A DNA stretch of 24,034 nucleotides from a virus. The translations under genes were made by a program, and so were the position numbers. The notes below the pieces were generated by a model. That model had not been told where the DNA came from. It ran no database searches and worked only from the letters and a program-made list of their open reading frames with translations. Shown piece by piece: positions 582-24,034 of this stretch. The stretch spans positions 1-24,034 of the IMG/VR virus record IMGVR_UViG_3300005935_000139. One strand, written 5' to 3'. Positions within the stretch are counted from its first letter, which is position 1. The number at the start of each line of letters is the position of its first letter.

Positions 582-1011
582 TTACAAAAGCAAGTCCTTT
601 TTGAACCGGGATACATCAAATAACTTCCCGGGACAGGATTTGTAACTTGCATAATCCCGATGCCCCTGAATATGATTAATCGGGATGGAGAAGATGGATT
701 TTAATGCCTTCACCAGTTGAACCCCCTTATTCCACTGTTCAGATGGGACTGGGGCAAGGTCGAAATTACCAAGGAAACAAATCCCTAATGATAAATGATT
801 CATGCCTCTCGTGTGAGCACCAGTAGTGTTTAACATCCGTCCTACCAATATTTCATAATCTCCTCTAACAAGCTCAATACCGAAATAACTAATGATACCC
901 AATTGCATTCCAACCAAGAGTTTCTGTGTGATATCGTCTAATAGCACTCCATGAGACCGTTTTGCTATCTTTTGTCAAACTATGGTGTAATATGATGTAT
1001 TTGGGTTTCAT
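582..1011 (-). pseudogene. N-acetylmuramoyl-L-alanine amidase (endolysin), disrupted by a frameshift
   Basis: Two overlapping frames together encode an Amidase_2/PGRP-type amidase, which cuts the bond between N-acetylmuramic acid and L-alanine in peptidoglycan. The first part, from ATG at 1011, reads [15 protein letters not shown] and ends GWNAIGYH at a TAG at 891-889. The second part resumes one frame over as FGIELVRGDYEILVGRM and runs to QGHRDY and KSCPGKLF, with the stop at 582. The expected zinc ligands of the T7-lysozyme type (His of ILHH, His of QGHRD, Cys of SCPG) are present, split across the two frames. Joining H directly to FGIEL leaves seven surplus bases, TAGTTAT. It may be a true mutation, an assembly error, or a recoding site at CAT TAG T. 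The start has an unusually strong ribosome binding site. Confidence 0.8.
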
Positions 1012-1015
1012 TGGC

Positions 1016-1026
1016 ATCACCTCCTT
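1016..1026 (-). promoter_or_regulatory. Extended Shine-Dalgarno sequence of the amidase
   Basis: The minus strand reads AAGGAGGTGAT, eleven bases complementary to the usual 3' end of bacterial 16S rRNA. It decides the start: the ATG at 1011 lies eight bases after GGAGG, a good spacing, whereas the ATG at 1017 is too close. The other amidase start copy at 1616 has only a weak GAGG and relies on overlap with the tail-fibre stop. Confidence 0.6.
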
Positions 1027-1060
1027 CAACTCTGTATTAGTATTGTTTATAACTTTACTA

Positions 1061-1089
1061 TTGACATTGTGTTTATATTTTATTACATT
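1061..1089 (+). promoter_or_regulatory. Probable sigma70-type promoter of the HNH gene
   Basis: On the plus strand TTGACA (1061-1066) is followed after 17 bases by TACATT (1084-1089), a consensus -35 box with a moderate -10 box. It lies in an AT-rich stretch immediately before the ribosome binding site (1098-1104) of the only plus-strand gene. It would let that gene be expressed independently of the late operon, although the predicted leader is very short. Confidence 0.45.
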
Positions 1090-1110
1090 ACTATTAGAAA
1101 GGAGTTCAAT

Positions 1111-1590
1111 ATGCCTCAAATTAGAAAAGTATGTCAACAATGTGGAAAAGTATTTCATGTTTATCCTTATCGCAAAGACACTGCAAAGTTTTGCTCAAAA
1201 TCATGTGGTTGTAAATCTCGAACTGGTAAATTAAGTAATAATTTCAAGACAGGACGTATAACAGATGTTAATGGATACGTTAGTATCAGAACTAACGGAA
1301 AATATATGTATGAACATCGATACGTGATGGAGCAACACTTAGGTAGAAAGTTATTAAAAGATGAAGCAGTCCACCATATTAATGGTGTTAGAGCAGATAA
1401 CAAAATCAAGAATTTAATTGTTATGAAGAAAAAGGCACATGATTCTTTTGAGTCGAAAAAGCGGTGGAGGGAAAACCCAGAGTCTTTCATAAGTAAAAAT
1501 AAAGAAAGATGCAATGCTGTAATAACAGAAAGACATCGCCGAGGGCAAAGATGCCAACGGTTCAAACCGTGTCCATTCCATACAATATGA
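1111..1590 (+). CDS. HNH endonuclease, probably a homing endonuclease
   Basis: The 159-residue protein has an N-terminal zinc-ribbon-like set of cysteines (Cys8-x2-Cys11 and Cys28-x3-Cys32) and then an HNH nuclease core, with Glu68-His69-Arg70, the His88-His89-x-Asn91 pair in [17 protein letters not shown], and Asn97 and Asn101. Such phage HNH proteins cut or nick DNA and often promote their own spread. The ATG at 1111 is chosen because AAAGGAG lies just upstream. It is the only gene on the plus strand, is visibly AT-richer than its neighbours, has its own promoter, and sits between two copies of the amidase start, so it looks like a mobile insertion. Its 3' end overlaps the right-hand amidase remnant. 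Downstream of its stop the plus strand is antisense to the tail-fibre gene, with no terminator seen. Confidence 0.88.
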
Positions 1591-1616
1591 TGCAGGATTA
1601 TGTATTTTGGTGTCAT
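1587..1616 (-). pseudogene. Remnant of a second amidase start ([10 protein letters not shown])
   Basis: Ten codons starting at ATG 1616-1614, which overlaps the tail-fibre stop as ATGA, encode [10 protein letters not shown]. This matches [10 protein letters not shown] at the start of the amidase at 1011. After the second His the frame runs into sequence antisense to the HNH gene and no longer resembles an amidase. The two copies share residues but differ at several third positions and one leucine first position (for example CTG CAT CAT versus TTA CAC CAT), so this is not a recent perfect duplication. It is probably the original, translationally coupled start, cut off by the HNH insertion. Confidence 0.7.
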
Positions 1617-3541
1617 GTTAAGTCCTCAGCAATGTGACCATCTTCAATTTTATAATCAATACTATCGATTGTTACAGGCGATTTATCTATGTAACCGTCA
1701 TGTCCGTGCTGTGCGTCGCTTCCTACATGGGTATTGAAAGCGGAAACAAGGATATCAAATTCAGCTTTAGTCGCGTAGTTCGTGGTATGGTGAGTATTAT
1801 CATGGTTTTCCGCATGATGGGCATTGTCATTACCAACATGGGTATCATACCCGGATTTAAACACCGAAACATCAACCCCGTCTATCGTCATCGTATGTGC
1901 ATCATTGGCATGATTTGTAGGTGTAAAAGCTGTATGATGAGCATTGACATTACCCACATGATCGTCATACCCAGATTTAAACGTTGCAATATTTACCGCA
2001 TCCACATTACCGGTAACGGCAATATCCCCAGTCACAGCAAGTCCAGATTGGAGTGTGAGAAGTCCTGCAATATTAGCCACTCCTTCAATATCTGCCCCAC
2101 CATCCGCATTAAGGAGACCATCAATTTCTAATGAACCTTTAAAATATCCAAGCCCAGTGTTCTCAACTTTAAATACCTGCACGGAATCTTTCTGAAAAGC
2201 TATCTGCGATACTCCCATATATGCGTAACTGTTCCCATCATCACTACCTAAATATATAGCAGCATTATCAGATTTAACTTCCATTCCAGGGGTAGCACTC
2301 CACCACAAAGTATCATCAATTATTATGACAGGGTCATTGGCGTCATTATATAATATGAAATTATTAGTTGCGTGGCTAAGAACTATCCGTTGATTGGCAG
2401 CAGCAGTTTGAATTGTGAGACCCGTGAGACTGCCTGCAGTAACTGCTCCTACTGCTGTAATTTCCAGAGCATTTACATAACCAGTATCTATGGTATTCCC
2501 AACGATTGTAGTTACTCCTGCTGCGTCCTCAGCAGTTCCGATAGCAACATTTGTTCCTACTGTGAGATTTGACACTGTAATGATTGAAGCATTTATTGTT
2601 CCAGCAGTGAGCTTATCAGCGGAAAGGTCATTGATTTTCCCATCATTCACAGCAAGATTGTCGATTTTAGCCGTGGTAACTGCGAGATTATCAATTTTGG
2701 CTTCCGTGATAGCGGCATTAAGGATGAAGGCAGAACCGATTACCATGTTAGCAGACGAGTTCCAAACTAACTGGACAACGCCACTTTCATTCGTTGCAAT
2801 CATAAACACTCCGGCACCAGAGGTATATCCTGCTGTGCCAGCATAATTCGAGACATACGGATCTATTATAGTTCCGGAACCACTTGCAATTGCTCCTCCC
2901 CAATATATATAAATATGGGAAGTGTTTCCAGTCACAATCTTATAATAGGCACCTCCATAAACCAAGTAATGCTCATTCCATGTGACGATTCCTGGTGCAG
3001 GTGTATTATCACTCCACGAATCTCCGGTGAGGACGATGGTATTATCAAAGCGTTTCGTTGCAGTTATGGCGAAATCGGCGATTTCTGTTGGGGTGATCCC
3101 AGCAGTCGTTCCAGAAACTCCGGCAGTGGTTGTAGGGTAAAATGAGCCTGTAACTCCTGATGTATTCCTCGCTCTTATCCAATAGTACCGTGTGACACCG
3201 GAACTCCCCAGTTCATCAACGTAGTAATCTGCCCTGACTTCTGCAATCTTGGACGAACTTCTTCGAGTATTTACTGTATTTCTCCAGATTTCCATGACAT
3301 CAAAATCTGTGTCTTCCGGGTCACTCCAAGATAGATAAAGCTGAGTAATACCCGCGGTGACCGTAAGGCTTGACCCGTCACCCGGGCCCGTGGTCTTTCC
3401 CTGAATTTCTACCGTGATTTTCGGACTATCTTCTGCTGCTTGAAGCCTCCCGCCTCGACCAACAGATTGCACCATAATTTCCATTTCATGTCCAACAATC
3501 AAGTCTTTCGTAATAGTAACTTCTCTATCTCTCGTTCTCAT
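1613..3541 (-). CDS. Tail fibre protein with FN3-like domain and His-rich tip
   Basis: The 642-residue protein is probably a trimeric fibre at the tail tip. Residues about 58-140 resemble a fibronectin type III fold (LYLSWSDPED, then RYYWIRARNTSG). Residues about 278-310 carry the tandem helical unit AKIDNLAV, followed by DLSADKLTAGTI, a signature common in phage tail-tip and fibre proteins. A long glycine-, alanine- and threonine-rich beta region follows, then a C-terminal tip rich in histidine with repeated FKSGYDxHVGNxNAHH units. The start overlaps the preceding stop as ATGA and has only a weak ribosome binding site, so translation is probably coupled. The C-terminus is likely the receptor-binding end. 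It resembles the C-terminal portion of a lambda gpJ-like protein encoded as a separate gene. Confidence 0.75.
   Translation of the reverse strand: MRTRDREVTITKDLIVGHEMEIMVQSVGRGGRLQAAEDSPKITVEIQGKTTGPGDGSSLTVTAGITQLYLSWSDPEDTDFDVMEIWRNTVNTRRSSSKIAEVRADYYVDELGSSGVTRYYWIRARNTSGVTGSFYPTTTAGVSGTTAGITPTEIADFAITATKRFDNTIVLTGDSWSDNTPAPGIVTWNEHYLVYGGAYYKIVTGNTSHIYIYWGGAIASGSGTIIDPYVSNYAGTAGYTSGAGVFMIATNESGVVQLVWNSSANMVIGSAFILNAAITEAKIDNLAVTTAKIDNLAVNDGKINDLSADKLTAGTINASIITVSNLTVGTNVAIGTAEDAAGVTTIVGNTIDTGYVNALEITAVGAVTAGSLTGLTIQTAAANQRIVLSHATNNFILYNDANDPVIIIDDTLWWSATPGMEVKSDNAAIYLGSDDGNSYAYMGVSQIAFQKDSVQVFKVENTGLGYFKGSLEIDGLLNADGGADIEGVANIAGLLTLQSGLAVTGDIAVTGNVDAVNIATFKSGYDDHVGNVNAHHTAFTPTNHANDAHTMTIDGVDVSVFKSGYDTHVGNDNAHHAENHDNTHHTTNYATKAEFDILVSAFNTHVGSDAQHGHDGYIDKSPVTIDSIDYKIEDGHIAEDLT
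1690..1984 (-). repeat. His-rich repeat units in the tail-fibre tip
   Basis: Two good copies of about 20 codons (1925-1984 and 1805-1864) encode FKSGYDxHVGNxNAHH, and a third, degraded copy near 1690-1750 encodes FNTHVGSDAQHGHD. Copies are 120 bases apart and differ mostly at synonymous positions. The intervening segments also contain His pairs (NHANDAH, NTHHTTN). Clustered histidines at a fibre tip may bind metal ions, as known for HxH motifs in the tip of the T4 long tail fibre; here that is inference. Confidence 0.65.
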
Positions 3542-5445: not shown

Positions 5446-5859
5446 TTATTCAGGAATATCAAGTTTCAGGGCAATAGGGTCAAGTGTGAATGTATCACCA
5501 TCCGCAAATGTCTTAACACCGAAATTCTCAGCACCATAAATCTTGTCACTGGTCACACCCTTGACAGCCCAACCATACACGGTTAAATCGCCTGTGATGT
5601 TAAATACCACGCCAGTTCCCGTCTGGTACGTGGAAACCACTGGGTCGGCATCTGTTGCAGCATCCCAGTTTGCCTTGGTCAATGTAACCTTTTCCCCACC
5701 AACGGTTGTGATTTCAGTGAGGTCAGCGTTTACAGTTGCATCCGTAATTGCTTCATCGTTCGAGAATAAAATTACTTCTTTGTCTTCAGGGGTAGCGTTG
5801 TCTAAATAGACTGCATCAGATAATTCCCTGAGACCTTCTTTCGTCATCTGTCCTGCCAT
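5446..5859 (-). CDS. Putative tail-tip associated protein, paralogue A
   Basis: The 137-residue protein is rich in Thr, Val, Asp and Gly and has no Lys-rich or membrane segment, as is usual for virion beta-sandwich proteins. Its C-terminal half contains VYGWAVKGV, then IYGAENFGVKTFADGDTFTL, which matches in pattern the end of the next gene upstream (EITEWGIFNA, LMDRAVFTARSVANG). This pattern of a tryptophan-glycine turn followed by F....V..G....F is common in small proteins encoded beside phage tail-tip genes. I see no enzymatic motif. A good AAGGAG site lies seven bases before ATG 5859. It is probably a small structural component or adaptor of the fibre. Confidence 0.55.
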   Translation of the reverse strand: MAGQMTKEGLRELSDAVYLDNATPEDKEVILFSNDEAITDATVNADLTEITTVGGEKVTLTKANWDAATDADPVVSTYQTGTGVVFNITGDLTVYGWAVKGVTSDKIYGAENFGVKTFADGDTFTLDPIALKLDIPE

Positions 5860-16583: not shown

Positions 16584-17270
16584 TCAAGACATTTCTGTCA
16601 AACACTCGTGTGTTATTTGAGGGATAACGGTTATGTGGGATCCCGGAGAACAGTTCAGGATTTCACAGTTCTTTCCCTTAAATAACTCTGGAAAATGTTT
16701 ATTGAACACCATAGTATCTATCATTATTGCCGTCTTCCTGTTTCCATGTGAATCAAATAATTCCTGATTTATATAAGTCCGTTTTTGTTCCACTATTGAC
16801 TTCCCATATTCACATCCATCCATGCCCAGTACCACGATTTTCTTCACACCGGCATCTGCAAGAGTAAGGAAAAGGATAGTCACGGAATTCGGTCGTGCAA
16901 CATTATCCTTAATTGGGAGGAATGGAGGACGTGGAACCAGGATTATCTGATTCCGGTATTTCTTGACAAATCCATTACTTTTTTCCATTAATGCCCCGAG
17001 TGCCCAAGTTGTTGTGATAAATAGATTTGTTGGATTCCTGTCTAAGAATACAGCAACATCAACACACTTTCGCACGATTTCCACTTCACTTGTTATGAGA
17101 ACAACTTCGAGTTCTTTCTTCATCAGGGCTTCAACAAACATGAAATCATTTAGTGACACATAACACCAGTCTTTTCCATTCAATGCATGTTCCGGAATAC
17201 CCTTTATAGAGGCTCCATGGAGGAGGATGCAAACGGTTCTACCGGCGATCTTTTCAGTTAAACGAATCAA
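16584..17270 (-). CDS. DUF115/GT42-like protein, possible sugar transferase
   Basis: The 228-residue protein has a Rossmann-like pattern shared by DUF115 (MptE-like or Maf-like) and GT42 sialyltransferase-type proteins: TVCILLHGASIKGIPEHAL, then VSLNDFMFVEAL, a second strand ADAGVKKIVVLGMDGCEYG, and NCSPGSHITVIPQI near the end. These families use a nucleotide-activated sugar or a similar donor. The likely start is TTG 17270, which overlaps the upstream stop as TTGA, with GAGGA about ten bases before; no in-frame ATG precedes the LHGAS motif. It is the last gene of the sugar cassette and may transfer the finished sugar to an acceptor. The donor and acceptor cannot be read from the sequence. 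Confidence 0.6.
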   Translation of the reverse strand: MIRLTEKIAGRTVCILLHGASIKGIPEHALNGKDWCYVSLNDFMFVEALMKKELEVVLITSEVEIVRKCVDVAVFLDRNPTNLFITTTWALGALMEKSNGFVKKYRNQIILVPRPPFLPIKDNVARPNSVTILFLTLADAGVKKIVVLGMDGCEYGKSIVEQKRTYINQELFDSHGNRKTAIMIDTMVFNKHFPELFKGKNCEILNCSPGSHITVIPQITHECLTEMS

Positions 17271-18484
17271 GGCAATAATTTCCTCTCCAATTTCCTGCTT
17301 GTCATTTCATTGATTTCCTTCAACACATCCATTCCGAATTTCCTGAGAACCATTTGCAGGTATTCCGTGTTTTTGTGATATTTCAACCAAGCAGTGTCAC
17401 GGAACTTCAATACTTCCTTTGCGGTTAAGTATTTTGTTGGGAGAGGTAGGAAGTCATAAGAGTATTGAGCGTACTGTGATGGTTCTTTCGGTAATTCCCA
17501 TTTCTGTTCTTTTGCATAACTTTCCAACTCTGTTCCAGGATAGGGCACTACACAATAGAAATTACTATATTCACAATTTAACTCTATTGCAAGGTCTAGG
17601 GTTTCCTGCATAGTAGAGAATGTGTCATCTGGGAAACCAAACATGAAGTTACCAAGGACAGAGATTCCAGCATCCTTCAGTCGCGTTACCGAGTTACGAA
17701 TATCTTCATTTGTGAATTTACCTTTATTCATGGATTGTCGGATTTCTTGGTTTCCGGATTCAATGCCAAGACAAATCCAATTAACTCCAGCAGTCTTTAC
17801 AATGCCCAAATTATCTGGAAGTGTATCTACGCGAGAATAACCCCAAATGTTAAAATTATTTTCCGTTTCGTTTATTATTGCTTTCAGAAGGTCACCAGAT
17901 TTCTTTGTAAGGAAGAGTTCATCCATCACCTTGACATTCTTCACTCCTGAATTAGATAAAACATTCAGGTCATTTACAACGGATTCAATGTAGCGTGTAG
18001 CGTACTTTGTTCCATAATAACTGTGGATGGTACAAAACTTGCATTTATATGGGCATGAAACGGAAGTATGGACAGTTCCGTATGGAGCTAACGTTTGTTT
18101 GCTTCCCCAAGTTTGCCAGTTATGAGCATGGTACTTATTCATGTTGAAAAGTGACCAGTCCGGGGAAACCTTTTTTGCATCAAAGGGTAAATGGTCAATT
18201 ATGGTTACATTCGTTGTTTTTAATTTGAGCCTATCTACCCCTGCCTGTTCCTGAATCCAAGCGGACGGGTGGACTCCGGTTGCCCAGATTTCAATTTCAT
18301 CACACCCTGACATGTCTGGACTAACTTCATCTACTTGTGCATCCCAGATTATCACGTCATCATGTAGCCGTTGAAGATCTTTAACTCTACATGCCATCCA
18401 ATGAGGAGGTTCTATTGCAGATAATGATGTGAGGTTTTGATAGTTCTGCATTTTGCTATCTGGTCGAATTAATCCGATAACCAT
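17267..18484 (-). CDS. Radical SAM enzyme with degenerate cobalamin-domain-like N-terminus
   Basis: The 405-residue protein has the CxxxCxxC iron-sulfur motif as Cys144-PYK-Cys148-KF-Cys151, followed by a TIM-barrel pattern including VMDELFLT, WGYSRVDTLP, GIESGN (240-245) and MFGFPDDT (281-288). These match the Elp3/MiaB/BchE-like class of radical SAM proteins. Residues 1-110 look like a remnant of the B12-binding Rossmann domain usual in the class, but I see no DxHxxG cobalamin motif. It could act on a sugar nucleotide or lipid-linked glycan, for example by epimerization, dehydration or methylation; the reaction is not readable. It overlaps the split transketolase upstream by 16 bases and the next gene as TTGA, so it belongs to the cassette. 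Confidence 0.8.
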   Translation of the reverse strand: MVIGLIRPDSKMQNYQNLTSLSAIEPPHWMACRVKDLQRLHDDVIIWDAQVDEVSPDMSGCDEIEIWATGVHPSAWIQEQAGVDRLKLKTTNVTIIDHLPFDAKKVSPDWSLFNMNKYHAHNWQTWGSKQTLAPYGTVHTSVSCPYKCKFCTIHSYYGTKYATRYIESVVNDLNVLSNSGVKNVKVMDELFLTKKSGDLLKAIINETENNFNIWGYSRVDTLPDNLGIVKTAGVNWICLGIESGNQEIRQSMNKGKFTNEDIRNSVTRLKDAGISVLGNFMFGFPDDTFSTMQETLDLAIELNCEYSNFYCVVPYPGTELESYAKEQKWELPKEPSQYAQYSYDFLPLPTKYLTAKEVLKFRDTAWLKYHKNTEYLQMVLRKFGMDVLKEINEMTSRKLERKLLP

Positions 18485-19356
18485 TTTGTGATTCCCTCCT
18501 TATCTAAACCATAGAACTTTTGAATGTTTCCTCTACCACCATAAACGTAATCGTAACTTGGAACGCCGCGGTGTTTCTTATTAAGTGCTTCGTACACTGC
18601 TGCAGCTAATCCACCACGAGAATTGTTTTCCTCAACAATTACAAAATCCTCATCGCCTATCACATTTCTAAATTTGCTTTCATCAAAAGGAAACTTAAAC
18701 ACATCAATTACTCCAACATCAGTTTCCTTTGTTACTTCAAGTGCTGTATGCACCATGTTACCTGTTGAAACAATCCATTGATGACAACCTGACCATTTAG
18801 ATACATCAAATCCATCTGCGAAATGGCTGATAGAGTCAAAGTTCAAATCATTTGGTTTTGGATAAATTTCTGGGAGATCCTTCCTATCCAATCTTACATA
18901 CATCAATCCTTTCCCAACTTCATCAGCTATCCGTACAGCCAAATGATTACTTGAGGGATTCCAAACTGTCATGTTTGGGAGGATTCTCATAATTGCCAAA
19001 TCCTCCAGGGCATGATGAGTGGGACCGCTATCCTCATAACTGAATCCGGCTCCCACACCTACTATCATAATTGGGATATTCATGAGGGCTGCTATCACCT
19101 TAATCTGTTCATAACACCTTAATGAAGCAAACGGTTGTATGGCATAACAGACTGGAATGAAACCTTCGTTTGCAAGTCCACATGCTGTGAGGATCATGGA
19201 TTGTTCAGCTATTCCAACATTAATGTAACGATGTGGATAATTTGTTCGAAAATCATCGAGGGCAGGTGCAGACATATCCGCGGTTACAATAACAAGTTTA
19301 TTCCCCATCGATGCTCGATTTACTATACTGTGAAAGAACGCATCTCGCATTGTCAT
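18469..19356 (-). CDS. Transketolase-like protein, C-terminal subunit
   Basis: The 295-residue protein covers the pyrimidine-binding and C-terminal domains of a transketolase. The catalytic glutamate lies in NVGIAEQSMILTACGLA, followed by RCYEQIKVIAAL, DSGPTHHALEDLAIMRILPN (with the conserved His) and a C-terminal domain with VDVFKFPFDE and DFVIVEENNSRGG. It must pair with the N-terminal subunit encoded just upstream to bind thiamine diphosphate at their interface and transfer two-carbon ketol units. The start at 19356 overlaps the partner stop as ATGA and has GGAGG seven bases before. Split transketolases are common in bacterial sugar-biosynthesis clusters but unusual in a phage late operon. 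The sugar substrate is unknown. Confidence 0.88.
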   Translation of the reverse strand: MTMRDAFFHSIVNRASMGNKLVIVTADMSAPALDDFRTNYPHRYINVGIAEQSMILTACGLANEGFIPVCYAIQPFASLRCYEQIKVIAALMNIPIMIVGVGAGFSYEDSGPTHHALEDLAIMRILPNMTVWNPSSNHLAVRIADEVGKGLMYVRLDRKDLPEIYPKPNDLNFDSISHFADGFDVSKWSGCHQWIVSTGNMVHTALEVTKETDVGVIDVFKFPFDESKFRNVIGDEDFVIVEENNSRGGLAAAVYEALNKKHRGVPSYDYVYGGRGNIQKFYGLDKEGITKWLSD

Positions 19357-20177
19357 GATAATTCCTCCATTGCTTGTTTAGCCTGTTCACCAGTTGGTGT
19401 CTTTGAATGCCAGAGTGGAGCATTCGTTAATTCCTCTATCCCTTTTCCCTTTATCGTGTCACAAATAATCATGAGAGGTTGCGTGGAAGATCTTCCTTTT
19501 ACATTATGAAGAACTTGGGCAAGTTCCACAAATGAATGACCGTCAATTCGAACTGTATCCCAGCCGAATGCATCCCATTTTGCTTCAAAATCCTCCAGTG
19601 AACAGGCATTCTCTGTGAAATCTGTGGCGCCGAGGCAGTTACGGTCGAGGAAAACAACTAAGTTATTCAATCGATTATGGGAGGCGAAGGCAGCGGTTTC
19701 CCAGATACTTCCTTCATAACATTCGGCGTCCCCGATGATGCAGAACACAAAGGGAAGTTCACGTTTCAGCTTTAACCCGTGAGCCATTCCTGCTGCAACA
19801 CCGAGCCCGTGTCCAAGTGAACCTGTGGTCAGTTCTACTCCGGGTACTGTATGTTGGAGATGAACAGCAAATTTCCCGCCATCTGCATTAAAGCCGTCAC
19901 ACCAGTCTCGTGGATAATAACCCACATCGGCGAGGACGCAATAGAGGACTGGACTTGCTTGTCCCTTAGAGAGGATGAATCTATCACGGGAATCTTTGTC
20001 CGGATTTTTTGGGTCATGATTAAGTATTCCTCCATGATAAAGTGCTACGAGTATTTCTACTATAGAATAACTGCTATTGACGTGTCCCGTGCCTGCCTGA
20101 CTGCACATCTCCAACACGTCTTTCCGGATTTGATTAGCTTTACTCTTCAATTTGGCTAAGGTGGTTTCTCCTGACAT
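19353..20177 (-). CDS. Transketolase-like protein, N-terminal thiamine-diphosphate subunit
   Basis: The 274-residue protein is the N-terminal, cofactor-binding half of a transketolase. Motifs are AGTGHVNSSYSIVEILVALY, FILSKGQASPVLY, PGVELTTGSLGHGLGVAAGM, and the thiamine-diphosphate motif GDAECYEGSIWETAAF with LDRN. Two usual residues differ: SKGH is SKGQ and GDG is GDA, so activity or substrate may be altered, though other split versions vary here too. I chose ATG 20177, which has GGAG six bases before; a TTG at 20198 is possible but lacks a site. It overlaps the end of the upstream gene by 38 bases, so translation is coupled. It pairs with the next gene. Confidence 0.88.
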   Translation of the reverse strand: MSGETTLAKLKSKANQIRKDVLEMCSQAGTGHVNSSYSIVEILVALYHGGILNHDPKNPDKDSRDRFILSKGQASPVLYCVLADVGYYPRDWCDGFNADGGKFAVHLQHTVPGVELTTGSLGHGLGVAAGMAHGLKLKRELPFVFCIIGDAECYEGSIWETAAFASHNRLNNLVVFLDRNCLGATDFTENACSLEDFEAKWDAFGWDTVRIDGHSFVELAQVLHNVKGRSSTQPLMIICDTIKGKGIEELTNAPLWHSKTPTGEQAKQAMEELS

Positions 20178-20517
20178 CCTGTACTCCTTCCCCAACAAGT
20201 TTATTAATTTCGTTCTTTATATTTATCCTGATACTATTTTTCCCTCGAATCCTAATTGCACGTTTTCCAACTTCGGTCGGGTCATTATCGAGTGCCCCCT
20301 GTCGAACATCGGATTCTAAATTCCAGATTTCACGATTAATCAGAATCATCTTATAGAGATAGTTAGTTAGATTGCTTTTCGGATGCCTCTCACATAAATC
20401 CATGAAACCATTTGAGAACATTACATATTCTAACCAGCTTTCTTCTTTACATATATTTACCAGTTTCAACGTTGCAATTGCAAACCGGTCAACAATATCA
20501 CCTGCATCTCGTTTCAT
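20140..20517 (-). CDS. DUF6165-like small helical protein
   Basis: The 125-residue protein has the pattern seen in DUF6165-type proteins of polysaccharide clusters: an opening DAGDIVDRFAIATLKL, a helix with NREIWNLESDVRQG, then RIRGKNSIRINIKNEINKL. It is predicted to be wholly helical, with no membrane segment. The family has no firmly known function to me; its members sit beside glycosyltransferases. Here it overlaps the cupin stop as ATGA and the transketolase start by 38 bases, so it is made together with these enzymes and may be a partner or regulator of them. The comparison is by recalled pattern and should be tested by a profile search. Confidence 0.5.
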   Translation of the reverse strand: MKRDAGDIVDRFAIATLKLVNICKEESWLEYVMFSNGFMDLCERHPKSNLTNYLYKMILINREIWNLESDVRQGALDNDPTEVGKRAIRIRGKNSIRINIKNEINKLVGEGVQDVRRNHLSQIEE

Positions 20518-20828
20518 AATTCTACCCTCATACTGTCTTCCGGATGCGGGGTACTCACTTCAATTAATGTAAGTCCCTCTGGTCCAGCAATTAACCTGTG
20601 TGTTTGGAATGGCAGAATCCGTAACACTCCACCTGCCGCGTATAACTTATTTCCTACATCCCCCTTTGTTTCCAACCCTCCATGAAGCACGTACATCGTT
20701 TCATCCTTTTCCTTATGAACATGAAGACTTGTACACATATTTGGTTTTATTACAAGTAGCTTCCCAAGATAATATCTTGTATTCGCCCACCAAATCTCAC
20801 ATCCCCAACGCTTTTCTACAACTTTCAT
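20514..20828 (-). CDS. Cupin-fold sugar enzyme or binding protein, 104 residues
   Basis: The 104-residue protein is a single small cupin. The metal site is visible as His36-x-His38, Glu43 and His77 in SLHVHKEKDETMYVLHGG and LPFQTHRL. It resembles the C-terminal cupin of type II mannose-6-phosphate isomerases and GDP-mannose pyrophosphorylases, and free-standing cupins of sugar clusters such as isomerases and epimerases. I chose ATG 20828, which overlaps the radical SAM stop as ATGA and has GGAGG five bases before. The complete metal ligand set suggests an active isomerase or dioxygenase-type enzyme, but the substrate is not readable. Confidence 0.78.
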   Translation of the reverse strand: MKVVEKRWGCEIWWANTRYYLGKLLVIKPNMCTSLHVHKEKDETMYVLHGGLETKGDVGNKLYAAGGVLRILPFQTHRLIAGPEGLTLIEVSTPHPEDSMRVEL

Positions 20829-21910
20829 ATAAACCTCCAACACATCGGATCCTCGTTATCCCAGAACAACTTCTCACATTGTTCACAGTAGACACCAAAT
20901 GTGCAACGGGTGAAACATTTTTCCGGGGTATCCCCGAACACGAGTTCCTGATGTCTTTCTTTTCCCCAGAACGTTAGGATATTTTTTGGGTTTGGGAAAT
21001 GCTGTCCGAGGATGAAATCTTTCTGATGGCGTTGATCCACACAAAAATAAACATTCCCGTCTGCACACAACTGAATAACTAAGGGGGCGCCGAAGCATTG
21101 TGAAAAACTCTTATCTGATAGGAAGTCTTTATTGAATTTATGTATTACCGTGAAGACCCGGAAATTCTCATCCTCTAGTTCATGACATTTTTCCATTTGT
21201 TCAAGGACGAGATCTATATTTACATTTGCAAGTTTTCCATCCAACTCTTTCCCCATACCCTGATGATGAAAATCCATAGGGCGAGCATGGAAATCCCGGA
21301 CACCGATTTCTTTTGCCAACTTACACGCATCATATACCTCATGTTGGTTAAGGGAGGAAATTAGGAATTTGTAAGAAACATCACAGTTACCCGAATCCTT
21401 ACTCACCCGTATGAGATTCCCGATTACATCCCGGAATCTATCCACACCTTTCAATTTCTTATATGTTTCTGGTGTAGCGGCATCCACGGATACACCGATC
21501 CAACGTAGGAGTGGAATTACATCGAGGAAGTTACCATTTAGCTTTGTTCCGTTTGTTGCAATACTTGCTTCCATCCCTGATTTTCTGGTTTCAATTATTG
21601 CAGTTTTCAATTCTGAATGGAGGGTGGGTTCACCTCCACCGCCGAAACATATTGCCTTCACTCCCCAATCACCGAGGAACTGGACAAGGTTGATTAGATG
21701 GGCATTTGTCATACGGTCAGGAGTTTTCCCTTTCATATATCTATGGGCATTACAGTGTTGGCATTTGAGATTACAGGCATGAATTGGATCAAGGGAGGCT
21801 TCGACCGGTGGGTGAAATTTACCCTTTACAATCCCTTTATACCAGTCCGCATAAAGTAAACCTTTCCAAGAGTTGAAACTATTAAACTTATTCTTATTTG
21901 ACCATTCCAT
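20825..21910 (-). CDS. Radical SAM/SPASM enzyme
   Basis: The 361-residue protein has the radical SAM motif Cys46-NLK-Cys50-QH-Cys53, followed by FGGGGEPTL, IATNGTKL and ISVDAATPETY, all typical of the family. The C-terminal region has eight cysteines (about 272, 282, 290, 332, 336, 342, 345, 357), as in SPASM domains that hold one or two auxiliary iron-sulfur clusters. Such enzymes oxidize or rearrange peptides, alcohols or sugars; in sugar clusters they can act as dehydrogenases. The start at 21910 has AAGGAGG six bases before it and overlaps the upstream glycosyltransferase by 17 bases. It is unlikely to be a host fragment, because the order of coupled genes is unbroken. Confidence 0.86.
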   Translation of the reverse strand: MEWSNKNKFNSFNSWKGLLYADWYKGIVKGKFHPPVEASLDPIHACNLKCQHCNAHRYMKGKTPDRMTNAHLINLVQFLGDWGVKAICFGGGGEPTLHSELKTAIIETRKSGMEASIATNGTKLNGNFLDVIPLLRWIGVSVDAATPETYKKLKGVDRFRDVIGNLIRVSKDSGNCDVSYKFLISSLNQHEVYDACKLAKEIGVRDFHARPMDFHHQGMGKELDGKLANVNIDLVLEQMEKCHELEDENFRVFTVIHKFNKDFLSDKSFSQCFGAPLVIQLCADGNVYFCVDQRHQKDFILGQHFPNPKNILTFWGKERHQELVFGDTPEKCFTRCTFGVYCEQCEKLFWDNEDPMCWRFI

Positions 21911-22661
21911 GTATTGCCTCCTTCAAATTATTAATTGCCAATGGAATTCCCCAGGCGCTAAAACCGTTTCTTAGCTGGCGTTGCTCTAATTTATTAAAAT
22001 GATCTGACATCCTCTTCCCCAGATGATCCTGTTTGATGTTTTTATATGAATGATAACAGATATGGTCAAGTTGGATTGGGAGTTCTAATGACCGATTAAC
22101 TTCCTTATTACTAAAAATTGTCCCAAGAAGAACATCTGCTCCCCAAGAAGGATATTGTTCCGGCATGAAATAGTTCAATGCTTTCACTGTTTCACGTGTT
22201 AATATAGGAAACCACCCCCAGTTGAATTCAGAAAGGTGAGGTTTATTCCGCGAAATATCTTTTGGGAAAGCATAAAGGATTCGGTCAGGGCGTTTCTTCA
22301 GGTAGTTCTCAATTGAGGTTCTTGCCAGTTCATCCCAGTCTGGTGTTAGGAATACCACGTCATTCCCGATTACCCAGAAAACTTTTCCCTGTGGAGTGAC
22401 TGGTGACTTATTCAGGAATACCCAGTTATAGTAATCATGTGAGATGTTTTGGCTTCTCTCACGGATTAGGAAACGTATATTCATCCCATTAAACTGTCCC
22501 CACCAACTTGCTATTGCATCTTGGGTTCTAACGTCATCGATATCAGCAATGATGATTAGTTCGAATGAGTTTAGGTTTTTCGCAGTATCCCGGATACTAC
22601 AGATTGTATTATACAATAAATCAAGTCTGTCCCGCGTTGGCATGACAATAGTAAAATACAT
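21894..22661 (-). CDS. Glycosyltransferase family 2-type protein
   Basis: The 255-residue protein begins MYFTIVMPTRDRLDLLYNTI, the nucleotide-binding start of GT-A glycosyltransferases, then FELIIIADIDD, FWVIGNDVVFLTPDW (with an acidic metal-binding motif), and a C-terminal half that should bind the acceptor. It lacks a membrane segment, so it is a soluble transferase. It starts in a TAATG overlap with the upstream transferase gene, so the pair is coupled, suggesting consecutive or paired sugar additions. Sugar donor and acceptor cannot be read. The position after a cupin and methyltransferase fits a glycan assembly cassette. Confidence 0.75.
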   Translation of the reverse strand: MYFTIVMPTRDRLDLLYNTICSIRDTAKNLNSFELIIIADIDDVRTQDAIASWWGQFNGMNIRFLIRERSQNISHDYYNWVFLNKSPVTPQGKVFWVIGNDVVFLTPDWDELARTSIENYLKKRPDRILYAFPKDISRNKPHLSEFNWGWFPILTRETVKALNYFMPEQYPSWGADVLLGTIFSNKEVNRSLELPIQLDHICYHSYKNIKQDHLGKRMSDHFNKLEQRQLRNGFSAWGIPLAINNLKEAIHGMVK

Positions 22662-23359
22662 TATAGTGTGTCCCTTATAAGTTCAAAATCATTTCCCCAG
22701 AGCAAACCCCTTCTCCTTCTTTCCTTCCACACTTTATCATCCTTTCCCTGAAATCTTCTAATGTGTTTATTCGTTTCATCCATGTAGGATGGATTTACTG
22801 CCGGATGAAAATGATCCAACTTTGCCTCCTGACTAAAGTAGAATCTGTTGTGCTTTCTTGCAAGTAACTCCATCTCACTATCCACATACATACAATAGAA
22901 GTCTTGGCAGAAGACGGCATTATCCGGAAACTGATTAAAATAATTCTTCCCGATCATGCCAAATGCCCCTTGTGCTGCTTTAACGTTTGGGGGAAAGTTT
23001 GCCTGATTAAGTCCTAAGACTCCATCAAAATTGGGAAAGTTCAGTAGATAACGTGTTCGGGCAGTACTCAGGCATCCCGGATGAAGTTGAACGTCATCAG
23101 TGAGATACATGAAAATGTCAGCATCACAAGTTTTCAAGTGAGAGTTCCAGAACTCTGCGGCGTGAAACTCAGGTTCATAAAGTCGGTACTTCAACCATGG
23201 ATGTGTACCATATTTCATAACAGTAAATTGCATATCGAATTTACTTGAAAAGTACACATAAACTGTACATTTACTTACCATATTTCCCATTATTGAATTC
23301 AAACATTTTTTAAGTTTTGTTGGTCTATTGTGACTTGGAATTACAATGTCAATTTTCAT
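22661..23359 (-). CDS. Glycosyltransferase family 2-type protein
   Basis: The 232-residue protein has the GT-A start MKIDIVIPSHNRPTKLKKCL and an acidic metal-binding motif in FMYLTDDVQLHPG (residues about 83-94), a pattern of short family-2-like transferases. The C-terminal part contains QDFYCMYVDSEMELLARKH and ends with a basic stretch. I chose ATG 23359 because GGGAGG lies five bases upstream; an ATG 42 bases further upstream lies within the preceding gene. It overlaps the upstream cupin gene by 11 bases and the next transferase as TAATG. It is probably cytoplasmic and adds a sugar to a lipid or protein acceptor. Confidence 0.75.
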   Translation of the reverse strand: MKIDIVIPSHNRPTKLKKCLNSIMGNMVSKCTVYVYFSSKFDMQFTVMKYGTHPWLKYRLYEPEFHAAEFWNSHLKTCDADIFMYLTDDVQLHPGCLSTARTRYLLNFPNFDGVLGLNQANFPPNVKAAQGAFGMIGKNYFNQFPDNAVFCQDFYCMYVDSEMELLARKHNRFYFSQEAKLDHFHPAVNPSYMDETNKHIRRFQGKDDKVWKERRRRGLLWGNDFELIRDTL

Positions 23360-23708
23360 CCATCCCTCCCTCTTTACGTCTCTCAATGTCAACACCATCA
23401 TAAAGATATTCGTATATCTCGATGCATTTCACATCTGTTACAGCATGAAACTTATGCCATTGCCCGAATCGTATATGTAGTGTATTAACGTAACCGGCAT
23501 CAGGTCTCAACTCGACTACGTAATTTCCTGCATCATCCCAGATAGTTACTTCAAGTATGCCCTCAATTATATAGAATACATTAGTTTTTTGAGCATGTTT
23601 ATGCTCTGAACAGTATCCTCCTTCATCGATTTCAATGTAATGCGTGGATGTCGTGTTGTTCCGGAAAAGTTCTGTCGTGTGACCCCAAACTTTCTTTTCA
23701 CGTTTCAT
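23349..23708 (-). CDS. Cupin-fold protein, 119 residues
   Basis: The 119-residue protein is a cupin with pattern CSEHKHAQKTNVFYIIEG, giving His36-x-His38, and later GQWHKFHAV with more His. The glutamate of the usual cupin motif is replaced by Asn43, so metal binding may differ or be lost. It resembles the other cupin in the cassette (at 20514) in motif spacing, with H-x-H, the 43rd position and a Gly at 50, so the two may be paralogues. Families of such short cupins include sugar isomerases and epimerases and mannose-6-phosphate isomerase type 2 relatives. The start at 23708 has GAGG about nine bases before, just after the methyltransferase stop. Confidence 0.7.
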   Translation of the reverse strand: MKREKKVWGHTTELFRNNTTSTHYIEIDEGGYCSEHKHAQKTNVFYIIEGILEVTIWDDAGNYVVELRPDAGYVNTLHIRFGQWHKFHAVTDVKCIEIYEYLYDGVDIERRKEGGMDEN

Positions 23709-23713
23709 AACTT

Positions 23714-24034
23714 CTACCTCTTTCTGAAGATAATCCTTCTACCGGTACGTCTGGCGATATCAAATTCGGTTACATGTTTCTCTATGAACTCTGTAATTGC
23801 CAATGTTGATGTTCCCCAAAGTTGTGATATGAAGAAGTCGTCACAGACCATAAGACCGAGTGGTGACAACCTTTCCCATACCCATTCAAGAGCATATTTT
23901 GTTGGTTTATAATGATCTAAATCTACATAGGCAAATGAGAATGTAAGTTTGTCTTTAACAGTGCCAAAGATTTCCGGGATGAAACCAGCCCAAATAGTAT
24001 AATCAGATTCAGTGTAACCACTTTTTGATAATCT
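23714..24034 (-). CDS. Methyltransferase, TylF/macrocin-type, C-terminal part only
   Basis: The last 106 residues of a SAM-dependent methyltransferase are visible, ending at TAG 23716-23714. The segment FAYVDLDHYKPTKYALEW, then LSPLGLMVCDDFF, is typical of TylF-like O-methyltransferases, where the acidic residues bind a metal and the sugar hydroxyl. The N-terminal SAM-binding part lies outside the window to the right. It precedes the cupin gene by five bases and is probably in the same transcript; it may methylate a sugar made by the other cassette enzymes. Confidence 0.78.
   Translation of the reverse strand, partial: RLSKSGYTESDYTIWAGFIPEIFGTVKDKLTFSFAYVDLDHYKPTKYALEWVWERLSPLGLMVCDDFFISQLWGTSTLAITEFIEKHVTEFDIARRTGRRIIFRKR

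Follow-up and report, generated by a model that had tools for sequence, protein, structure and literature searches.

How does an HNH endonuclease gene come to lie at the start of a phage amidase gene, with a recognizable amidase start on either side of it? This question is raised by a 24,034-base virus fragment from IMG/VR (IMGVR_UViG_3300005935_000139, positions 1-24,034), which we refer to as the window. The minus strand of the window carries tail genes. Its tail-fibre gene runs into an amidase start (copy A), whose likeness to amidases stops at a HisHis codon pair and is followed by sequence antisense to an HNH gene. On the far side of the HNH gene is another amidase start (copy B), and from there the amidase codons continue. 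The presence of two diverged amidase starts flanking the HNH gene is real. The features of the region, in coordinates of the window, are as follows.

582-884, minus strand: C-terminal part of the amidase with the other conserved motifs, in another frame (Pfam Amidase_2, 3.8e-11; aligned with the relatives L002-L004)
885-891, minus strand: 7-nt insertion TAGTTAT, giving a stop and a frame shift between the GYH and FGIE codons (homologue comparison)
892-1011, minus strand: N-terminal part of the amidase, 40 codons from copy B to GYH (frame and homologue comparison)
982-1011, minus strand: copy B, recoded amidase start of 10 codons (23/30 nt and 9/10 aa as in copy A; profile score 31.6 bits)
1020-1026, minus strand: strong Shine-Dalgarno sequence of copy B, AAGGAGG, 8 nt before the ATG (sequence)
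1061-1089, plus strand: possible promoter of the HNH gene, TTGACA-17-TACATT (a consensus match only)
1097-1104, plus strand: ribosome binding site of the HNH gene, GAAAGGAG (sequence)
1111-1590, plus strand: HNH endonuclease gene, 159 aa (Pfam HNH_3, 5.5e-10; PHROG HNH, 5e-19)
1587-1616, minus strand: copy A, stub of the presumably native amidase start, 10 codons (sequence; profile score 30.7 bits; counterpart in L091)
1613-3541, minus strand: tail-fibre gene, upstream of the amidase (open reading frame and matches to PHROG tail-fibre families)

The HNH gene and the two amidase starts

The HNH protein has a zinc-finger-like N-terminus (CxxC/CxxxC) followed by an HNH_3 domain (PF13392), which scored 39.2 bits against a cut-off of 24.8 and contains the HH...N...N/H motif. 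The stretch with this motif aligns with that of relatives, and the best PHROG match of the protein is an HNH family. A search of its sequence against solved structures gave no match. The gene is complete, with its domain and a ribosome binding site, and is probably a selfish DNA-cutting gene. Its possible promoter has to be read against the number of promoter-like sites in the region, which is about the same as in shuffled sequences. About 80 AT-rich bases separate the HNH gene from copy B (21% G+C at 1031-1110), and at the other end the TGA of the HNH gene (1588-1590) falls inside the HisHis codons of copy A.

The TGA of the tail-fibre gene overlaps the ATG of copy A as ATGA (1616-1613). This overlap, the passage from the amidase start into the antisense of the HNH gene, and the second start at 1011 with a strong ribosome binding site had all been described in the first-pass annotation, and each is seen in the sequence. 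The two copies were said to share residues and not codons, and this also held: copies A and B agree in 9 of 10 residues and in 23 of 30 bases, five of the nine shared residues are encoded by different, synonymous codons, and the longest identical run is 8 bases. The flanks of the copies are identical at chance level (9/40 nt upstream and 16/60 nt downstream). With five synonymous differences in nine shared residues, a simple target-site duplication or any other recent duplication is ruled out, as had been argued from the divergence of the copies.

We scored the window with a profile of amidase starts built from 76 homologous amidases (63 distinct 10-mers). Copies B and A scored 31.6 and 30.7 bits, respectively; the next-best 10-mer in the six frames of the window scored 10.6 bits, and the best from 30 Markov-simulated windows 16.3 bits. 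Because both copies score far above the other sites in the window and above the simulated windows, neither is a chance likeness.

Copy B reads in frame into the amidase codons behind it. The copies lie 605 nt apart and are out of phase (605 mod 3 = 2), and the frame of copy A continues for 149 codons antisense to the HNH gene before it stops at 1167. A meaningful read-through of this frame was rejected, both because the two copies are out of phase and because antisense frames as long occur, where there is no host gene, in 2 of 38 other HNH genes. The one feature that points to copy A as the native copy is its ATGA overlap with the tail-fibre gene.

The broken amidase and the empty site in relatives

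The frame from 1011 closes after 40 codons (...GWNAIGYH*) because seven nucleotides, TAGTTAT, are inserted at 891-885. At the GYH-FGIE site the window reads GGGTATCAT, then TAGTTAT with an in-frame TAG, and then TTCGGTATTGAG. Behind the insertion the amidase resumes in another frame and runs to its normal end at 582. All the conserved amidase motifs are present, split over two frames, and the C-terminal part matches Amidase_2 (PF01510) with 43.9 bits against a cut-off of 26; the single open frame by which we would have recognized a PF01510 endolysin, spanning the HisHis and the C-terminal motifs, is interrupted. A search for an Amidase_2 domain besides that of the split amidase found none in the window or in the partial, near-identical contig L009. 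In all 76 homologues GYH is joined directly to the next conserved motif, a count that is biased since most of them were fetched with a pattern containing GYHFGIE; L091 and L088, which were found with other patterns, likewise do not have the 7-nt insertion. Ribosomal bypass of the seven nucleotides was considered and rejected: RNA folding gave no structure in support of either bypass or programmed frameshifting, and there is no matching landing codon. The seven nucleotides may have arisen as a later loss, as a scar of the repair or through an error in assembly.

These results limit two statements of the first-pass annotation. The second amidase was called usable, and a full amidase is not open; the HNH gene was seen as a mobile gene that restores the gene it interrupts, and this is not supported for the present gene, whose restored frame the insertion breaks. 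In this contig the restoration is formal only.

We gathered amidase relatives from 74 viral loci and 5 genome loci, together with L091. The fetched flanks of the amidase loci contained no HNH relative. In whole records (n = 49, comprising 48 amidase relatives and L009) a single weak HNH match was seen, at 29% over 77 residues and at a distance of about 15 kb from the amidase of that record. A motif scan of the relatives, using a motif too strict for the starts of some loci, revealed no second amidase start. Relatives that have both starts and no HNH gene would contradict an insertion; they were sought, and among the relatives examined none had two starts. L091 presents a clean empty site: the stop of the upstream gene overlaps the amidase start (...CCATGACACC...) in the same ATGA overlap as in copy A, and the amidase continues uninterrupted past its start. 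The ATGA overlap at the amidase start is found in L004 too. The insertion of an HNH gene at the 5' end of the amidase, as first proposed, is supported by this empty site and by the homology of the HNH protein, although none of the relatives with an empty site is a close one.

The interrupted junction is known from one contig, and no close relative spans it. A near-identical contig (L009/L011, IMGVR_UViG_3300035698_026182) overlaps the window from about position 5,530 upward and seems to run about 2.7 kb past its right end; it stops short of the amidase region. Searches for a near DNA match to the window in the phage collection and for tail-fibre relatives in viral contigs found none. In 395 genomes from the phylum of the host of a related prophage, the amidase search returned only distant amidases besides the known locus. 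Nine relatives (L018, L025, L026, L032, L034, L047, L066, L086 and L087) have about 23 extra residues between the YHT/YHM motif and W.DIGYH; this group includes prophage-like amidase copies in Desulfobacterales genomes.

Comparison with ShiLan-type insertions and other systems

In the phage collection, the HNH protein finds its strongest matches within DNA methylase genes, both in mycobacteriophages, ShiLan and Bipolar among them, and in a cyanophage; the window and ShiLan HNH sequences are 41% identical over 112 aa. A screen that compared the peptides to the left and right of HNH loci, and that clipped part of copy A, led to these methylase loci. According to its published description, the ShiLan domain is an HNH gene concealed in a different frame of the methylase and shows no features of an intein or intron (PMC11855218). 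Read in the methylase frame, the insertion begins with 11 residues that resemble the 11 residues immediately following the insertion site, a likeness weighed by the authors of that description as a possible trace of an intron (PMC11855218). In our comparison, methylases without the insertion read ALKPAFEPIVVARKPLVG, whereas in the interrupted methylases ALKPSYEPVCVAVKPYG precedes the HNH gene and TAFEPIVVARKPLVG follows immediately on its stop, the two being 606 bases apart. The copy after the HNH stop is identical in 27 of 27 nt between Bipolar and the uninterrupted methylase of Tomaszewski; the copy on the 5' side of the HNH gene is diverged (13/27 nt).

The methylases and the window thus have the same layout. 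Their HNH genes are homologous and, in both cases, occupy a conserved motif of a phage gene without being part of an intron or intein. In both, the native copy of the motif abuts the HNH stop and the diverged one is found 5' of the HNH gene; for the window, this polarity takes copy A as native from its ATGA overlap. The spacing of the motif copies is also similar (606 nt in the methylases and 605 nt in the window). This match is probably a coincidence, because the lengths of the HNH genes differ, and the polarity tells more. The two cases differ in the target, a methylase as opposed to an amidase, and in the way in which the host gene is continued. In ShiLan the HNH gene has the orientation of the methylase and uses a different frame, and the methylase frame runs through it without a stop. 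In the window the HNH gene is antisense, lies at the start of the target gene and has its own ribosome binding site, and the target gene gets a new start instead of a read-through; no host frame is open through the HNH gene.

Hidden HNH genes of the ShiLan type also occur beyond the mycobacteriophages (L108, L109, L119, L175 from Cylindrospermopsis phage Cr-LKS3, L130, L099, L100, L141 and L179). The methylase frame is free of stops over 151-182 HNH codons in all nine of these loci, at 37-67% G+C, while nearly all other HNH relatives have stops in the corresponding frame. A diverged motif copy before the HNH gene was present in every one of the ShiLan-type methylase loci that were translated.

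Fungal mitochondria are known to contain endonuclease elements that come with a diverged version of one end of their target gene, there the 3' end (PMC3630166); the cases are atp6, atp9, cox2 and nad3 of Glomus and atp6 of Allomyces. As in the window, the diverged copy of the gene's end restores the gene, in the window formally, and the copies have high protein identity and low DNA identity (PMC3630166). The mitochondrial elements encode LAGLIDADG or GIY-YIG endonucleases, supply C-terminal ends in sense orientation, and the resulting hybrids were demonstrated in RNA (PMC3630166). In contrast, the window is a phage sequence with an antisense HNH gene at the N-terminal end and a restored gene that is broken, and it is known from sequence alone. 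The mobA gene and gene 60 of phage T4 are similar to the window in that a free-standing HNH gene lies in an important phage gene and in that the gene part behind it contains a further small insertion (PMC2988022, PMC5009743). However, the 50-nt insert in T4 is bypassed by ribosomes, whereas the 7-nt insert of the window comes with neither a supporting structure nor a matched landing codon, and T4 has no duplicated start. In the Streptococcus phage Javan616, an HNH relative (L005 / L093 2302-4687) in the sense orientation separates two parts of a lysin gene; this layout is intron-like, at another cell-wall hydrolase.

Origin of the interrupted amidase

From the observed architecture, the divergence of the copies, the empty site in relatives, the HNH homology and the frame break, we lean, with reservation, towards a homing-type insertion: the HNH gene would have arrived together with a foreign, recoded amidase start that formally restored the gene, and a small insertion would have damaged the amidase. 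The first-pass annotation had suggested that the element carried its own amidase start or that the gene was repaired from another phage after cutting, and this was supported as the likely origin. HNH insertions of this general kind are already known in phages; the window is a different form, present in one contig. The case is weakened because the amidase is broken and because there is no second example of the same junction.

The following route would lead to such a locus. The inserted element would be a ShiLan-related HNH gene, equipped with a ribosome binding site and possibly a promoter of its own and placed antisense at the HisHis codons of an endolysin amidase. A donor phage with the HNH gene beside its own amidase would have co-infected with a phage whose amidase had no HNH gene, and the putative nuclease would have cut the latter amidase at or near the HisHis codons, which are conserved and would therefore offer a dependable cut site. 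The break would have been repaired from the donor, using homology on the side of the amidase body and illegitimate joining on the side of the tail-fibre gene; one-sided, illegitimate break repair and co-conversion have been documented in phage homing (PMC2988022). In this way the amidase start of the donor would have entered along with the HNH gene, with the native start left behind as the stub, copy A. Copy B with its ribosome binding site, in frame with the amidase body, would give a formal restoration of the amidase that involves no splicing, and its recoding may protect it from being cut again. The 7-nt insertion, 40 codons in, would have disabled the restored gene in this contig, either later or at the entry of the HNH DNA.

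The main rival to a homing-type insertion (ALTERNATIVES: module swap) is that illegitimate recombination replaced the resident amidase with a cassette of HNH gene plus amidase that came from another phage and in which the HNH gene was a passive passenger. This would leave a 30-base stub of the old gene and predicts that the amidase body is foreign. It explains the diverged copies, the stub and the ribosome binding site of copy B equally well. The exchange of lysis genes is common among phages, nuclease genes have been reported at the boundaries of such exchanges (PMC10448857), and the G+C content of the amidase (38-41%) does not set it apart from its surroundings. However, the exact position of the break, at a conserved codon pair of the catalytic site and at the HNH stop codon, fits the target of a nuclease better than it fits a random joint, and the ShiLan-type insertions have the same polarity. 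We regard the replacement of the amidase by a cassette as a possible but rather unlikely origin.

It is quite improbable that the assembly joined two related phages or populations and in this way created the double start or the 7-nt insertion. The window is a metagenomic contig with a unique architecture, and its near-identical counterpart ends before the amidase region. A false join at the copies is unlikely, however, because their longest identical run, 8 bases, is too short to connect assembly paths; moreover, the junction falls on both a gene stop and a conserved motif, and the HNH gene and copy B each have sensible signals of their own. An intron on the minus strand, the other alternative offered in the first-pass annotation, whereby the amidase RNA would be spliced from the HisHis codons of copy A with removal of the HNH region, is very unlikely: although splicing at this point would keep the frame and phage introns do carry HNH genes (as between the lysin parts of Javan616), an Rfam search for the conserved ribozyme core of group I or II introns over 300-2000 on both strands was empty up to E = 10, the intron would hold a near-perfect amidase start with a strong Shine-Dalgarno sequence by accident and an HNH gene in antisense, and splicing would leave the break caused by the 7-nt insertion in place.

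By the usual view, homing genes reach conserved genes only together with an intron or intein, and otherwise occupy the spaces between genes. A nuclease gene bringing with it a recoded part of its target would open a further route into conserved genes, a natural parallel to gene drives with a recoded rescue. We tentatively raise the idea, which we think more doubtful than the homing-type origin of this locus, that some phage HNH elements carry a built-in, recoded target segment on the 5' side of the nuclease gene and so enter genes without an intron or intein. If this were true, the recoded copy would rebuild the gene, by read-through in the ShiLan-type methylases and by a new start in the window, and escape recutting; the same polarity in two unrelated targets would then reflect a general, splice-free homing strategy. 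The route is known from fungal mitochondria, and the comparison made here suggests that it is possibly common to ShiLan-type phage elements. Given this common layout, one can test whether the element includes the diverged motif copy. The recoded start of the window may be a fixed part of the element or may have been picked up once by repair, and a single contig is compatible with either.

Beyond its structural genes, the window carries on the minus strand (16584-24034) a series of genes for two transketolase-like halves and for radical SAM, cupin-like and glycosyltransferase-like proteins; of these, the Radical SAM and Transketolase_N domain matches were tested. These genes form an unusual sugar-modification cargo for a phage fragment.
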